This document shows positions 6,264 to 63,245 of a DNA stretch of 64,000 nt, one piece after another. Position numbers and translations under genes: made by a program. The notes under the pieces are model-generated. The model was given only the letters and a program-made list of their open reading frames with translations, did no database searches and was not told where the DNA came from. Location of the stretch: positions 4,987,001 through 5,051,000 of the forward strand of contig NZ_LR134338.1 in NCBI RefSeq assembly GCF_900637055.1, given 5' to 3'. How positions within the stretch are numbered: position 1 is the stretch's first letter; each line of letters begins with the position of its first letter. The DNA is from Brevibacillus brevis (GTDB lineage Bacteria > Bacillota > Bacilli > Brevibacillales > Brevibacillaceae).

Positions 6264-6470
6264 AAAACCGTGCGTAAGAGCACGGTTCCCGTAGTCGAGC
6301 AAATGGGTAGATGGATGACCGTAAGTTCTTAACTAATCAAGGCCTCCCTTTTTCCATAGCAAATAAGCCGACATGAAATGTGGTTTTTGCCAAAAATACT
6401 GGGAGTACCCTATCCAATTGCTTAGTTAAGAACACACACCGACATCAAAACGTCCCCTTTTGAAAAAGAT
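6264..6470 (-). ncRNA. Unassigned structured RNA (riboswitch-like leader or free-standing sRNA) upstream of bpsA
   Basis: Read on the minus strand, a good promoter (next entry) would start an RNA near 6470. It contains a perfect 12-bp long-range stem, GTTCTTAACTAA (6422-6433) with TTAGTTAAGAAC (6325-6336). This encloses about 85 bases with an inner CTCCC/GGGAG stem and small hairpins. It ends in a textbook terminator, CCGTGC-TCTTAC-GCACGG plus seven T. Total length is about 205 nt. I compared it by eye with the common Bacillota riboswitch consensus patterns and with the general 6S RNA shape and could not assign it. Having its own promoter and terminator, it could be an independent sRNA or an attenuated bpsA leader. 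Confidence 0.6.
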
Positions 6471-6477
6471 ACTTTCT

Positions 6478-6506
6478 ATTATACGGCACTCGCAAATAAA
6501 CGGCAA
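6478..6506 (-). promoter_or_regulatory. Sigma-A-type promoter for the structured RNA
   Basis: On the minus strand TTGCCG (6501-6506), a 17-base spacer and a perfect TATAAT (6478-6483). It lies immediately after the stop codon of the MFS gene. Confidence 0.75.
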
Positions 6507-6510
6507 GAAG

Positions 6511-7749
6511 CTAAATGGCAGTCTCTACAATCGCATTTCCAGGCTGCTTCCGCTTTTCATGCAACCTGCGTCCAAGCCAATAAAAGATCAAGCTGACCAG
6601 CGCCAATACTGCCATGACCAAAAACATTACGGGGCCACCATATGCGGTGAGCACCATGCCACCTGCCCATGGACCGAGGAAGCTGCCCAGCATCGTTGCG
6701 CTTTGTGCCCCATAGTAAGTCCCTCTCATATTCGCGGGACTGATCTCGTCGATTTGCGCATACTCCGCCGGTACAATCAGGATTTCACCTAGCGTAAAAA
6801 CGATCATCGCTGTAATAAACCAAGCCCAGTCTGGCGAAAAAGCAAAGCCGACTTCTCCTATGGCCATCAATACAGCGCCACCTGCTATCCGTGTAAACAA
6901 GGAATAACGCTCAACTAGTCTCGTCAATGGAATTTGCAAAAGCAAGACGGTAAATCCGTTGAGGCTCATCAACGTTCCAAACAAGGCGACTCCTTCCGAA
7001 AAGTTTTCCCGCAAGTATTGGGAGAGCGTAACAGACATCTGACCGTACACCGTCACTAACAGGATTCCGCCTGTGACAAATGTAAGAAGGACGACATCCC
7101 TTCTGAGCACTTGCCAGATCTCAGGCAAACTGGCTCTTTCTACCTCGCCGTTCCCCCCGCCTTCATCAGTGACGCCACATCTCCGACATGCCACTAATAA
7201 AATGACAGCAAAGCTCACCAAGGATACCGCAGTCAGAATATATGCCAGATTGCTGCCGGAAATCCCCAAAAAAGCACCGAGCATAGGACCAATCGCAAAA
7301 CCTAGATTGTTCGCAAGATAGCGATTCGAGAACACACGAAAACGTTTATGCTCGGGAGTCAAGTCACCCATCAGCGCTTTTGAAACCGTCGCAAAAATTG
7401 AAGCCGCCAATCCCATAACCAAGCTGATCAACAGCAAACCGATCGGATGAGCCACCGTAATGAATCCGATAATCGAGCACGCCATAGCAAGCAAGGAAAA
7501 AAACATCAGCTTTTGTCTGCCAAACAAATCCGAGAGAATCCCGCCAGCAAATCCCCCTACTGTTCCAGCCAAAGGACCTGCACCGATAATAAGCCCAATA
7601 TAGGCGTGAGAGAGCTTCGTCGTTTCACCGAGATAGATGGCCAGAAAAGGGATACTCATCGATTGGGTGAGCTGAACGAACACCGACCCTGCCATCAACA
7701 GATGAACAATCGGGTGATACGCCTCCCACACTTGCCTCATTTTGCTCAT
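6511..7749 (-). CDS. MFS transporter, probable multidrug efflux
   Basis: 412-residue membrane protein with 12 predicted transmembrane segments. The MFS loop 2-3 signature is visible as GGILSDLFGRQKLM, and motif C-like glycines occur in the fifth segment (LGFAIGPMLGAFLG). The family (DHA1-type, MdtH/YttB-like) exports small drugs in exchange for protons, but the substrate cannot be read from sequence. It lies 51 bases downstream of an ArsR-type regulator on the same strand, so the pair probably forms a self-regulated resistance operon. No terminator is seen between the two. Confidence 0.8.
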   Translation of the reverse strand: MSKMRQVWEAYHPIVHLLMAGSVFVQLTQSMSIPFLAIYLGETTKLSHAYIGLIIGAGPLAGTVGGFAGGILSDLFGRQKLMFFSLLAMACSIIGFITVAHPIGLLLISLVMGLAASIFATVSKALMGDLTPEHKRFRVFSNRYLANNLGFAIGPMLGAFLGISGSNLAYILTAVSLVSFAVILLVACRRCGVTDEGGGNGEVERASLPEIWQVLRRDVVLLTFVTGGILLVTVYGQMSVTLSQYLRENFSEGVALFGTLMSLNGFTVLLLQIPLTRLVERYSLFTRIAGGAVLMAIGEVGFAFSPDWAWFITAMIVFTLGEILIVPAEYAQIDEISPANMRGTYYGAQSATMLGSFLGPWAGGMVLTAYGGPVMFLVMAVLALVSLIFYWLGRRLHEKRKQPGNAIVETAI

Positions 7750-7800: not shown

Positions 7801-8721
7801 TTACTCTGATGCATGGAAGAAGGAACGAAGCAAGACCGGGAGACGCTCGACGAAGGCTTCTCGCAGACTGTAGTAGGAAATCGTCGTACTTCCCGTGTAG
7901 TGAGCACGAATCAGCCCCGCTCTGCGCAACGCCGTTACATGATGATGGACGGTGCTTTTTGCCAGTGATACTTGCTTCTGTAATTCACCTAGAGTGCACG
8001 TCTTTTTTGCCAGGCAGCGCAAGATTTGCAGGCGCTTCTCATCCGCTAGGCACTGTGTGATGGGCAACAGCTCCAGGAGCGGCTGTGGTTTTGTCGTTGC
8101 CGCATCTTTGACAGGGTACATGCAAGTGGCAAGCCCCCGATAAAAGTCGAGAACAGAAGAATGGGCACAATGATATTGCGGGATCAGTACAACCTCGCGC
8201 AAATCTGACATCGGCTCAATCCAGATACCGTTCGTAACATGATCGACCAAATCGATAGGAGGCGTTTCTTTGGCGCGGACTGTCAGCTCATCGGCTCTCC
8301 GTTGCAGACTCTCCAAAATGCGTGAGTCCACTTTCGAAAAATAATGTTCATTCCACCGGGTAAGCAACGATAGGCTGTGATCACGGATTTCCCCCAGGTT
8401 CAGCGGGATTGTCTCCACCCATGGCGCGAGGCGCTCATAAATTTCACCGGGAGGGATGCTCTCCAGCCACCCAAGAAATTCTTCAACGGATTTGGTCTGG
8501 GGCGATTGCGCTACCAGCAGCACCAAACGGTGGAGCACCTCCCAGCGTTCATCTGCGAGTTCATCTGCAAAAGACGCCGGGAGCTTTTGTTTTGTCTCCT
8601 CTTTCCAAGCAGAACCAAGCAAATAATGCTTGCGCTCCTTTTCGTAAATGTAAGTGTAGAGGCTAATGATACATTCATACGCAGGAGACCATTCTACTCT
8701 AATCGAATACATATCATTCAT
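7801..8721 (-). CDS. ArsR-type winged-helix transcriptional regulator with large N-terminal domain
   Basis: 306 residues. The C-terminal third (about 215-295) is an ArsR winged helix: ADEKRLQILRCLAKKTCTLG followed by the recognition region SLAKSTVHHHVTALRRAGLI. The N-terminal 200 residues resemble the DUF5937-type domain found fused to such HTHs and may sense a ligand. No metal-binding CxC motif of classical ArsR is seen, so metal sensing is unlikely. The start is the ATG at 8721, with a GGTGA-type site upstream. Its position directly before the MFS gene suggests control of that transporter. Confidence 0.75.
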   Translation of the reverse strand: MNDMYSIRVEWSPAYECIISLYTYIYEKERKHYLLGSAWKEETKQKLPASFADELADERWEVLHRLVLLVAQSPQTKSVEEFLGWLESIPPGEIYERLAPWVETIPLNLGEIRDHSLSLLTRWNEHYFSKVDSRILESLQRRADELTVRAKETPPIDLVDHVTNGIWIEPMSDLREVVLIPQYHCAHSSVLDFYRGLATCMYPVKDAATTKPQPLLELLPITQCLADEKRLQILRCLAKKTCTLGELQKQVSLAKSTVHHHVTALRRAGLIRAHYTGSTTISYYSLREAFVERLPVLLRSFFHASE

Positions 8722-34932: not shown

Positions 34933-35190
34933 CGGTGAGGATAGAGGTCGCGGCTTTTATATCATCCTGTACGAGATTCAGAGAAAATCAATGACTCCAG
35001 GTAAGGAAAATCCGCCGAAGCTCATATCGCGTCTCTGTGCGATTGGGTTGGGGCTGTACTCGAAAGGGGCAGAACTGTCACGTTTGCATGCCAAGCAAAC
35101 GTGGTGAGCTATCTTCAGTGAAGGCTTGGTGGGGATTGGATGATACCGCCCTATGCCATTTTTTTGGCTATGGCGGTTTTTTCGTTTCCG
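34933..35190 (+). promoter_or_regulatory. Lysine riboswitch (L box) with terminator
   Basis: The leader carries the lysine-riboswitch hallmarks in order: GATAGAGGTCGCGG near 34936, GGAAAATCCGCCGAAG near 35005, a GGTTGGGGCTGTACTCGAA segment near 35045 and the closing GTGGTGAGCTATC near 35100. The intrinsic terminator ACCGCCCTATGCC/GGCTATGGCGGT plus TTTTTT (35149-35187) follows. Lysine binding favours the terminator, switching off the permease gene. This explains the 383-base gap before the permease. Confidence 0.9.
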
Positions 35191-42566: not shown

Positions 42567-42872
42567 AAAGCCTCAGCAACCAGGCTCATGATTTCCATGA
42601 ATCCGGTTGCTGAGGCGAAGGTATCGCGGTACCACTCAGCTTTTTTGCCTCTCTCACAAAAGGCAAACTCGTGCTGTCTACAAAGACATGCGCCCCATAA
42701 CGTGGGCCATCCGCTGCTTTCTACTTGGCATTTTCAAAAGCAGAGCTCCAAGGTGGCTTTCAAAAAGAGTTCGCGGCTGCCCTCTCAGCTAACAGGCAAC
42801 TCTCTGGACGTCAAAATCCCTTTTTTACTTTCCTTTTCACGGCTGTGTTGGTTGTTTTATTGAATGTCTCAG
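42567..42872 (-). promoter_or_regulatory. T-box riboswitch upstream of alaR-alaT, apparent alanine specifier
   Basis: On the minus strand the conserved T-box antiterminator sequence appears as GAGTGGTACCGCGATACC (about 42619-42636). It is followed by a strong terminator, GCCTCAGCAACC with GGTTGCTGAGGC plus TTTTT (42567-42616). Stem I is recognisable upstream: an AGTA loop-E segment near 42818 and, on the 3' side, GGA-GCT-C (42742-42749). GCT (42744-42746) would be the specifier and encodes alanine. Uncharged tRNA-Ala would favour antitermination. The specifier placement rests on hand folding. Confidence 0.85.
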
Positions 42873-63154: not shown

Positions 63155-63245
63155 ATAACGCAAAAGGCAAAGTCATCGAAAGGTGGCGACGCAAAACCAC
63201 GGGTCTACAGTCTTTGACCATGATAGCCGGGTTGCCATCATCTTG
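63155..63245 (+). promoter_or_regulatory. Cyclic di-GMP-I (GEMM) riboswitch
   Basis: The core order is that of GEMM-I: GGCAAAGTCATCGAAAGGTG (63166-63185) with its GAAA tetraloop, GACGCAAAACCACGGGTCT (63188-63206), and the closing TGATAGCCGGGTTGCC (63221-63236). The second stem loop lies between. Remaining gene-free sequence between 62965 and 63432 holds the promoter, this aptamer and a terminator. Control of the GNAT-like gene by c-di-GMP is expected, but the direction cannot be read with confidence. Confidence 0.88.

Follow-up and report, generated by a model that had tools for sequence, protein, structure and literature searches.

A putative ribosome-mediated attenuator leader upstream of a bpsA homologue in Brevibacillus brevis and of MutS2-like genes in related bacteria

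The region preceding bpsA on the minus strand of the 64-kb Brevibacillus brevis window (the whole stretch of DNA that was analysed) raises the question of what kind of regulatory RNA is made there. The initial annotation listed a TTGCCG-17-TATAAT promoter, a perfect 12-bp stem, inner hairpins, a terminator with seven T and a second terminator, all of which are present on that strand, and read them as a structured RNA unit that could be an orphan riboswitch or a free-standing RNA. The unit itself stands, being conserved and provided with its own promoter and terminators; neither of the two proposed identities is supported. A leader ORF with its Shine-Dalgarno site had been missed, and the 5' arm of the stem is the end of this ORF. 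In our reading the element forms the 5' leader of the bpsA transcript and acts as a ribosome-mediated transcription attenuator resembling that of vmlR; we assign this a probability of about 0.85. Its parts, listed in the direction of transcription over 6510-6139 and then bpsA, are the following.

6506-6478, minus strand: promoter TTGCCG-17-TATAAT (TTGCCG 6506-6501, 17 nt, TATAAT 6483-6478)
6461-6453, minus strand: Shine-Dalgarno region of the leader ORF, AAAAGGGGA
6445-6422, minus strand: leader ORF of seven codons, MSVCVLN* (ATG TCG GTG TGT GTT CTT AAC TAA)
6433-6422, minus strand: 5' arm of the anti-antiterminator stem, GTTCTTAACTAA, coinciding with codons 5-7 of the leader ORF plus its stop codon
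6383-6368, minus strand: small inner hairpin, followed by TTATTT at 6366-6361; together a candidate for a pause hairpin with a pause motif of the NusG type (TTNTTT)
6336-6325, minus strand: 3' arm of the stem, TTAGTTAAGAAC
6330-6318, minus strand: antiterminator segment, AAGAACTTACGGT, with a possible pairing partner, ACCGTGCTCTTA, in the 5' half and loop of terminator 1
6287-6261, minus strand: terminator 1 (hairpin 6287-6266, seven T down to 6261)
6219-6183, minus strand: terminator 2 (hairpin 6219-6189, then six T)
6138-4966, minus strand: regulated gene bpsA, encoding a BpsA homologue of 390 aa (PF01861)

The two arms of the stem pair perfectly over 12 bp, and the leader RNA has a predicted folding energy of -64.2 kcal/mol, compared with a mean of -50.1 (sd 4.0) for 200 dinucleotide shuffles (z -3.55). 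The RNA is expected to start near 6471. A consensus scan of 3.2 kb gave 2 promoter-like sites against 3.6 expected, so the window promoter does not rise above chance in that scan, which also listed neither window terminator. Across the family a -10-like box with at least five of six matches lies at about the same distance from the leader ORF in 124 of 182 elements, versus 19 of 180 at a control position 250 nt upstream. Across 55 aligned elements little or no variation is seen in the stretch that follows the leader stop codon (6416-6408, minus strand; consensus AA.T..ATA, AATTGGATA in the window). Another stretch, just before bpsA (6168-6150, ATCCCTTTTGAAGAGA), is by eye nearly complementary to the Shine-Dalgarno region of the leader (6465-6450, CTTTTTCAAAAGGGGA), and the two could possibly pair. 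The leader is itself preceded by two genes of its own orientation, that for an MFS transporter close to drug-efflux families (6511-7749, minus strand) and, further upstream, that for a protein with a C-terminal ArsR-type HTH (7801-8721, minus strand).

The expectation that the RNA belongs to no known family was borne out by Rfam release 15, 6S models included: with the whole window searched at gathering scores no family matches the leader, and at E ≤5 the only hit in the leader region is to a snoRNA, at 13.6 bits where the cut-off is 50. The riboregulators that Rfam recognises elsewhere in the window are a T-box leader (42608-42849, minus strand, 115 bits), a lysine riboswitch (34934-35119, plus strand, 83 bits) and a c-di-GMP-I riboswitch (63156-63239, plus strand, 80 bits). 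That T-box is the only one in the window, and a T-box leader was rejected for the element itself, where RF00230 gives no match and which has clients of the wrong kind. A mobile element with terminal inverted repeats was also rejected, as a DNA search of the same genome with 361 bases finds this place only.

Within the genus Brevibacillus, DNA similarity detects the element in 21 of the 26 genomes. A collection of named genomes was then covered with a pattern requiring both arms exactly (22 bases, gap 70-100), which gave at least 117 stretches, 80 of them taken as loci; among the matches listed, these belong mostly to Paenibacillus, Brevibacillus, Halobacillus, Rossellomorea, Fictibacillus, Pontibacillus, Thalassobacillus and Clostridium, with others besides. 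In contigs of Elusimicrobia, four stretches (L056, L076, L111 and L121) contain inverted repeats, GGGGACGTTCTTAACTAT, that fit the arm pattern without a leader ORF and are probably an unrelated repeat. A covariance model (R1) built from 55 elements scores above 70 bits at 76 of the 80 arm-pattern loci, one of which, L055, is cut by a contig end and is matched only in part. Searches with this model at E ≤0.001 found the element in 25 of 39 genomes of the order and in 74 of 398 genomes of the class; for the phylum the figure is 16 of 398, several of these matches being weak, and for the family of G064, which is probably Paenibacillaceae, 246 of 295. A second, diverged copy is found in the same genome as the window at 2061128-2061285, where it precedes another gene, that of a MutS2 paralogue (2061449-2063467); it scores 121.5 bits, compared with 98.8 for the window copy. 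In total 199 elements were collected, of which 183 are distinct and 97 form a non-redundant set. Not carried into the distinct set were reverse-strand shadows, L055, L185 (which duplicates L246), four class hits that were repeats (L255-L258) and the majority of the near-identical loci from Brevibacillus.

The leader ORF has exactly seven codons in 181 of the 183 distinct elements and in 95 of the 97 non-redundant ones. Its start codon is ATG in 169 cases, GTG in 8 and TTG in 4, and its stop codon TAA in 164, TAG in 16 and TGA in 1. An SD-like 4-mer precedes the start codon in 95 of 96 non-redundant elements; at a control position 60 nt downstream the figure is 11 of 96. For the arm-pattern loci the ORF is an independent finding, because these were chosen by their arms alone and not by a start codon or Shine-Dalgarno site; loci found by the covariance model are not independent of it in this way. 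All 23 aligned Brevibacillus leader peptides end in VLN*, with a variable residue before this end.

An alignment of homologues, which had been suggested at the outset as the place to look for covariation, does contain compensatory changes in the stem. In an alignment of 76 matches (75 distinct), which was fitted to the covariance model and thereby favours the stem, 98.8% of the cells pair and three pairs are changed on both sides, in five cells. None of 500 shuffles reached the observed covariation, and when the stem was slid by one to three columns at most two pairs were changed on both sides and 24-50% of the cells were paired. The individual changes are instructive. A T-A pair is replaced by G-C in L259 and by C-G in L263, turning the leucine codon CTT into CTG and CTC, respectively; A-T becomes G-C in L236, where the stop codon TAA becomes TGA; and C-G becomes A-T in L262 and L264, where Asn7 is changed to Lys. 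In L260 one A-T pair became T-A and two neighbouring pairs are lost, while L261 has a shifted version of the stem. One element (L242:561-724, in G034), located before a bpsA-like gene, has lost the stop codon, so that the ORF runs to 12 codons, together with part of the 3' arm, which is degenerate; it is a decaying or altered element. Sequence comparison thus establishes the leader ORF, the stem and their wide conservation.

These data bear directly on the possibility that the leader peptide itself, mainly through its VLN end, stalls the ribosome in the presence of one ligand such as an antibiotic or a polyamine. Among the seven-codon leaders Val5 is found in 181 of 181, Leu6 in 180 and Asn7 in 175, and both leucine codon changes described above are synonymous, as such an arrest peptide would predict. 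This constancy is expected from the pairing as well, because the same bases form the 5' arm. Residues 2 and 4, on the other hand, vary widely, the Asn-to-Lys changes of L262 and L264 are accompanied by the compensatory change in the 3' arm, the leader of L260 ends in VQI, and Asn7 is replaced by Ser in L229 and L244. Three weak matches to the model (L314-L316, E 2e-4 to 0.0097) keep the arm GTTCTTAAC in another reading frame, which ends the peptide as MFIRS* and speaks for the RNA arm rather than the peptide end as the conserved feature. We therefore regard peptide-specific arrest as unlikely. With codons 2 and 4 variable, Asn7 able to change together with the base it pairs with and the reading frame open to shifts, stalling that is general or occurs early on the ORF appears more likely than a peptide-specific arrest.

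Terminators are a regular part of the family. Upstream of the gene, 181 of 183 elements have at least one terminator-like hairpin and at least 144 of 183 have two or more, the latter being a lower bound because the scan finds terminator 1 of the window and lists no second one. These counts come from a scan that replaced a stricter one by which both window terminators were missed. The TGAAC..GTTCA core seen in terminator 2 is not general, being found in 13 of 74 non-redundant two-hairpin elements, and the shorter TGA..TTCA in 39 of 74.

In the window the antiterminator would form by pairing of AAGA with TCTT and of ACGGT with ACCGT. Compared with shuffled terminators, the antiterminator-terminator pairing had a mean z of -1.48 in the 175 of 183 elements tested, and five or fewer of 100 shuffles were as good in only 76 of these 175; the signal is thus real but uneven. 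Masking the ORF in partial transcripts raised the mean number of expected antiterminator pairs from 0.45 to 8.39 (85 of 97 non-redundant elements). With the ORF masked and the terminator half shuffled the number was 5.07, the real sequence exceeding its own shuffle in 73 of 85 elements, and three or more pairs were expected in 79 of 85 real elements versus 65 of 85 with the shuffled half. For the window element with its ORF masked, an antiterminator with 10 pairs appeared once the partial transcript reached ...CTCTTACG; none appeared at the shorter of the two ends tried, nor when the masking was limited to a ribosome positioned on the start codon. When the complete terminator was present terminator 1 still won in the equilibrium fold with the ORF masked, so that the antiterminator must act during RNA synthesis, as a kinetic switch. 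The folding of partial transcripts lends support to a putative switch between antiterminator and terminator, which the equilibrium fold with the full terminator does not.

Such a switch might be assisted by a polymerase pause. Of the 97 non-redundant elements, 73 contain the published NusG pause motif TTNTTT in the region separating the two arms, compared with a mean of 43.0 (sd 4.5, maximum 56) in 200 shuffles, and the other 24 lack it. The 22 nt that precede the motif have a median folding energy of -4.6 kcal/mol, versus -1.6 in shuffled loops, and fold better than these in 56 of the 73 cases.

The attenuator would then operate as follows. The RNA would start near 6471 and a ribosome would begin translation of MSVCVLN*, while RNA polymerase probably pauses at TTATTT just behind the small hairpin, so that the outcome need not be settled at once. 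Once a ribosome has completed the ORF and departed, codons 5 to 8 could pair with the 3' arm and the antiterminator segment would be locked; terminator 1 would then fold, and transcription would end in a short RNA of about 210 nt. If instead the ribosome stalls on the ORF it would cover the 5' arm, leaving the 3' arm free for the nascent 5' half of terminator 1; with these two paired, the polymerase would read on into bpsA.

The genes that follow the leader were assigned by tblastn with five reference proteins to the 183 elements. A MutS2-like gene was found behind 129 of them and bpsA behind 44; rare clients are the GNAT gene of L225 with its relative in L303 (two elements) and the APH-like gene of L229, a weak match of 24.4 bits with a cut-off of 23.2. 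None of the five reference clients was found behind seven elements. Two of these, L079 and L113, are cut short by the fetched stretch; L310 precedes another GNAT gene, L262, L264 and L265 precede an ABC exporter, and L266 precedes an ABC-F gene that scores 383.7 bits against a cut-off of 380 with a ribosomal-protection-like ABC-F model. The weak matches L314-L316 also precede ABC-F genes, in one case with an APH gene (E 1.2e-36) in between. GNAT, APH, ABC-exporter and ABC-F proteins are of kinds known from drug resistance. Among the 23 aligned Brevibacillus elements, 5 precede the MutS2-like gene instead of bpsA. The distance from the leader start codon to the gene, which has the same direction, has a median of 349 nt for the MutS2 paralogue and 327.5 nt for bpsA. 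The clients are, like the leader ORF and the stem, shown by sequence comparison.

This set of clients can be used to weigh the remaining alternatives. An attenuator whose ribosome stalls in cells starved of Val, Leu or Asn would share the classical anatomy of a leader ORF, alternative stems and a terminator; yet the ORF contains one codon for each of these amino acids and no client is a gene for Val, Leu or Asn biosynthesis, which makes this reading very improbable. Still less credible is the riboswitch for a polyamine or other amine that the initial annotation proposed. Its appeal lies in the window client, a homologue of branched-polyamine synthase, but the MutS2 paralogue is the commonest client, the rare clients are not polyamine genes, a seven-codon ORF with its Shine-Dalgarno site is conserved, and no Rfam riboswitch matches the leader. 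The last proposal, a free-standing 6S-like or other trans-acting RNA, would account for the discrete RNA of about 210 nt expected from the promoter and terminator, and is most improbable in view of the conserved ORF, the lack of an Rfam match (6S included) and the position of the element just upstream of its gene in the same direction.

A ribosome-mediated attenuator, our preferred reading, has close known relatives in anatomy. The vmlR leader of B. subtilis is described as carrying a uORF within an anti-antiterminator stem, antibiotic-stalled ribosomes causing read-through, and as having a TTATTT behind a hairpin that was shown to matter (PMC9226507). The present leader resembles it in its short uORF within the stem, candidate pause hairpin with TTATTT and intrinsic terminator, and vmlR itself is an ABC-F gene, as are the clients of L266 and L314-L316. 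The vmlR uORF is MIN, of three codons (PMC9226507), whereas here there are seven, the last of which form the stem arm; moreover, the main clients here are the MutS2 paralogue and bpsA, and there are mostly two terminators. A similar likeness holds for the cplR, vmlR2 and lsaA leaders, in which an antibiotic-stalled uORF controls ABC-F expression by attenuation (PMC10201436); the uORFs are MR[I/M], MK[L/Q] and MAGN there and M-x-x-x-V-L-N here, and the clients differ. The published uORF sequences of the vmlR, cplR, vmlR2 and lsaA leader families are not shared by the VLN-ending seven-codon ORF (PMC9226507, PMC10201436). The uORF of E. coli topAI-yjhQ, which is reported to sense several ribosome-targeting antibiotics, is comparable as a broad sensor of stalling (PMC12121999).

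The commonest client deserves separate consideration. Canonical MutS2 is present in all 26 genus genomes (34-37% identical to the query, in frames of 785-828 aa), and no covariance-model match at E ≤0.001 was found at canonical mutS2 in these genomes. The MutS2 paralogue is present in 17 of the 26, and each of the 17 genes is preceded by the leader at a distance of no more than about 500 bases. It matches the solved B. subtilis MutS2 over the core only (E 1.8e-108). In four full-length paralogues Pfam detects MutS_V alone, and matches to the MutS2 model end at about position 510-575 of 790, which indicates that these proteins lack the C-terminal SMR domain. The only hint of a KOW-like stretch in the paralogue is a non-significant alignment.

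The window protein is, by sequence, a homologue of BpsA: it matches PF01861 with an E value of 1.4e-41 and the solved N4-bis(aminopropyl)spermidine synthases 2qm3 (E 1.6e-22) and 5xnc (E 2.7e-20), and no NCBIfam model matches it. A BpsA match was found in 22 genus genomes, and the leader lies directly before bpsA in 17 of them (18 genes). In three genomes (G014, G015 and G016) bpsA is found right behind the leader-carrying MutS2 paralogue gene and in the same direction; in G014 (L348) bpsA is apparently broken, in two pieces with one internal stop, while the leader and the MutS2 paralogue are kept. Two bpsA genomes have neither arrangement: G001 (L347), where only residues 106-387 are matched and the 4.8 kb examined contain no leader arms, and G009, with two short weak BpsA matches. 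The shared leader and the gene order are the best evidence that the MutS2 paralogue and BpsA serve one task.

An inducer of the kind of a ribosome-targeting antibiotic, or a similar translation stress, is likely, because the element also precedes ABC-F, APH, GNAT and ABC-exporter genes as well as that of the MutS2 paralogue. B. subtilis lacking MutS2 is reported to be hypersensitive to chloramphenicol, tetracycline and erythromycin (PMC10897456). From the vmlR-like anatomy, the resistance-type clients and this phenotype we infer an attenuator that is opened by stalled ribosomes. The RNA is, then, probably a widespread ribosome-read switch rather than a riboswitch.

While this kind of attenuator is already known, the leader family is uncatalogued in Rfam release 15. 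Literature searches of openly accessible journal articles did not find the leader family under MutS2 with leader peptide, attenuation, ribosome collision, paralog or Paenibacillus, and found nothing on attenuation with Paenibacillus; a search of the same scope for the peptide MSVVVLN or the 12-base arm gave only the 12-mer in a phage-lambda context. The family was also not found under BpsA or branched-chain polyamine in Bacill*, where the accessible part of a review contains neither Brevibacillus nor Paenibacillus (PMC12979288), and the available portions of the uORF literature give other uORFs, with no mention of MutS2 (PMC10201436, PMC10219788).

Since the same switch precedes ribosome-rescue-like and antibiotic-resistance-type genes, there are hints that the polyamine enzyme belongs to a ribosome-stress response. 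Branched polyamines are known from thermophiles, and the bacteria in which BpsA is found here are not known to be thermophilic. In Thermus, polyamines of the long and branched kinds are reported to maintain ribosomes (PMC12979288). We tentatively propose, as a possibility somewhat short of even odds, an undescribed ribosome-stress regulon of Bacillota in which the leader family co-induces the SMR-less MutS2 paralogue and the branched-polyamine synthase, together with ABC-F, APH or GNAT proteins in some lineages. If this is true, the MutS2 paralogue would be an inducible ribosome-rescue or resistance factor, and branched polyamines would acquire a new function, the protection of ribosomes that have stalled or been hit by a drug. 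The leader would thus represent a large attenuator family whose clients tie the SMR-less MutS2 paralogue and BpsA to ribosome stress.
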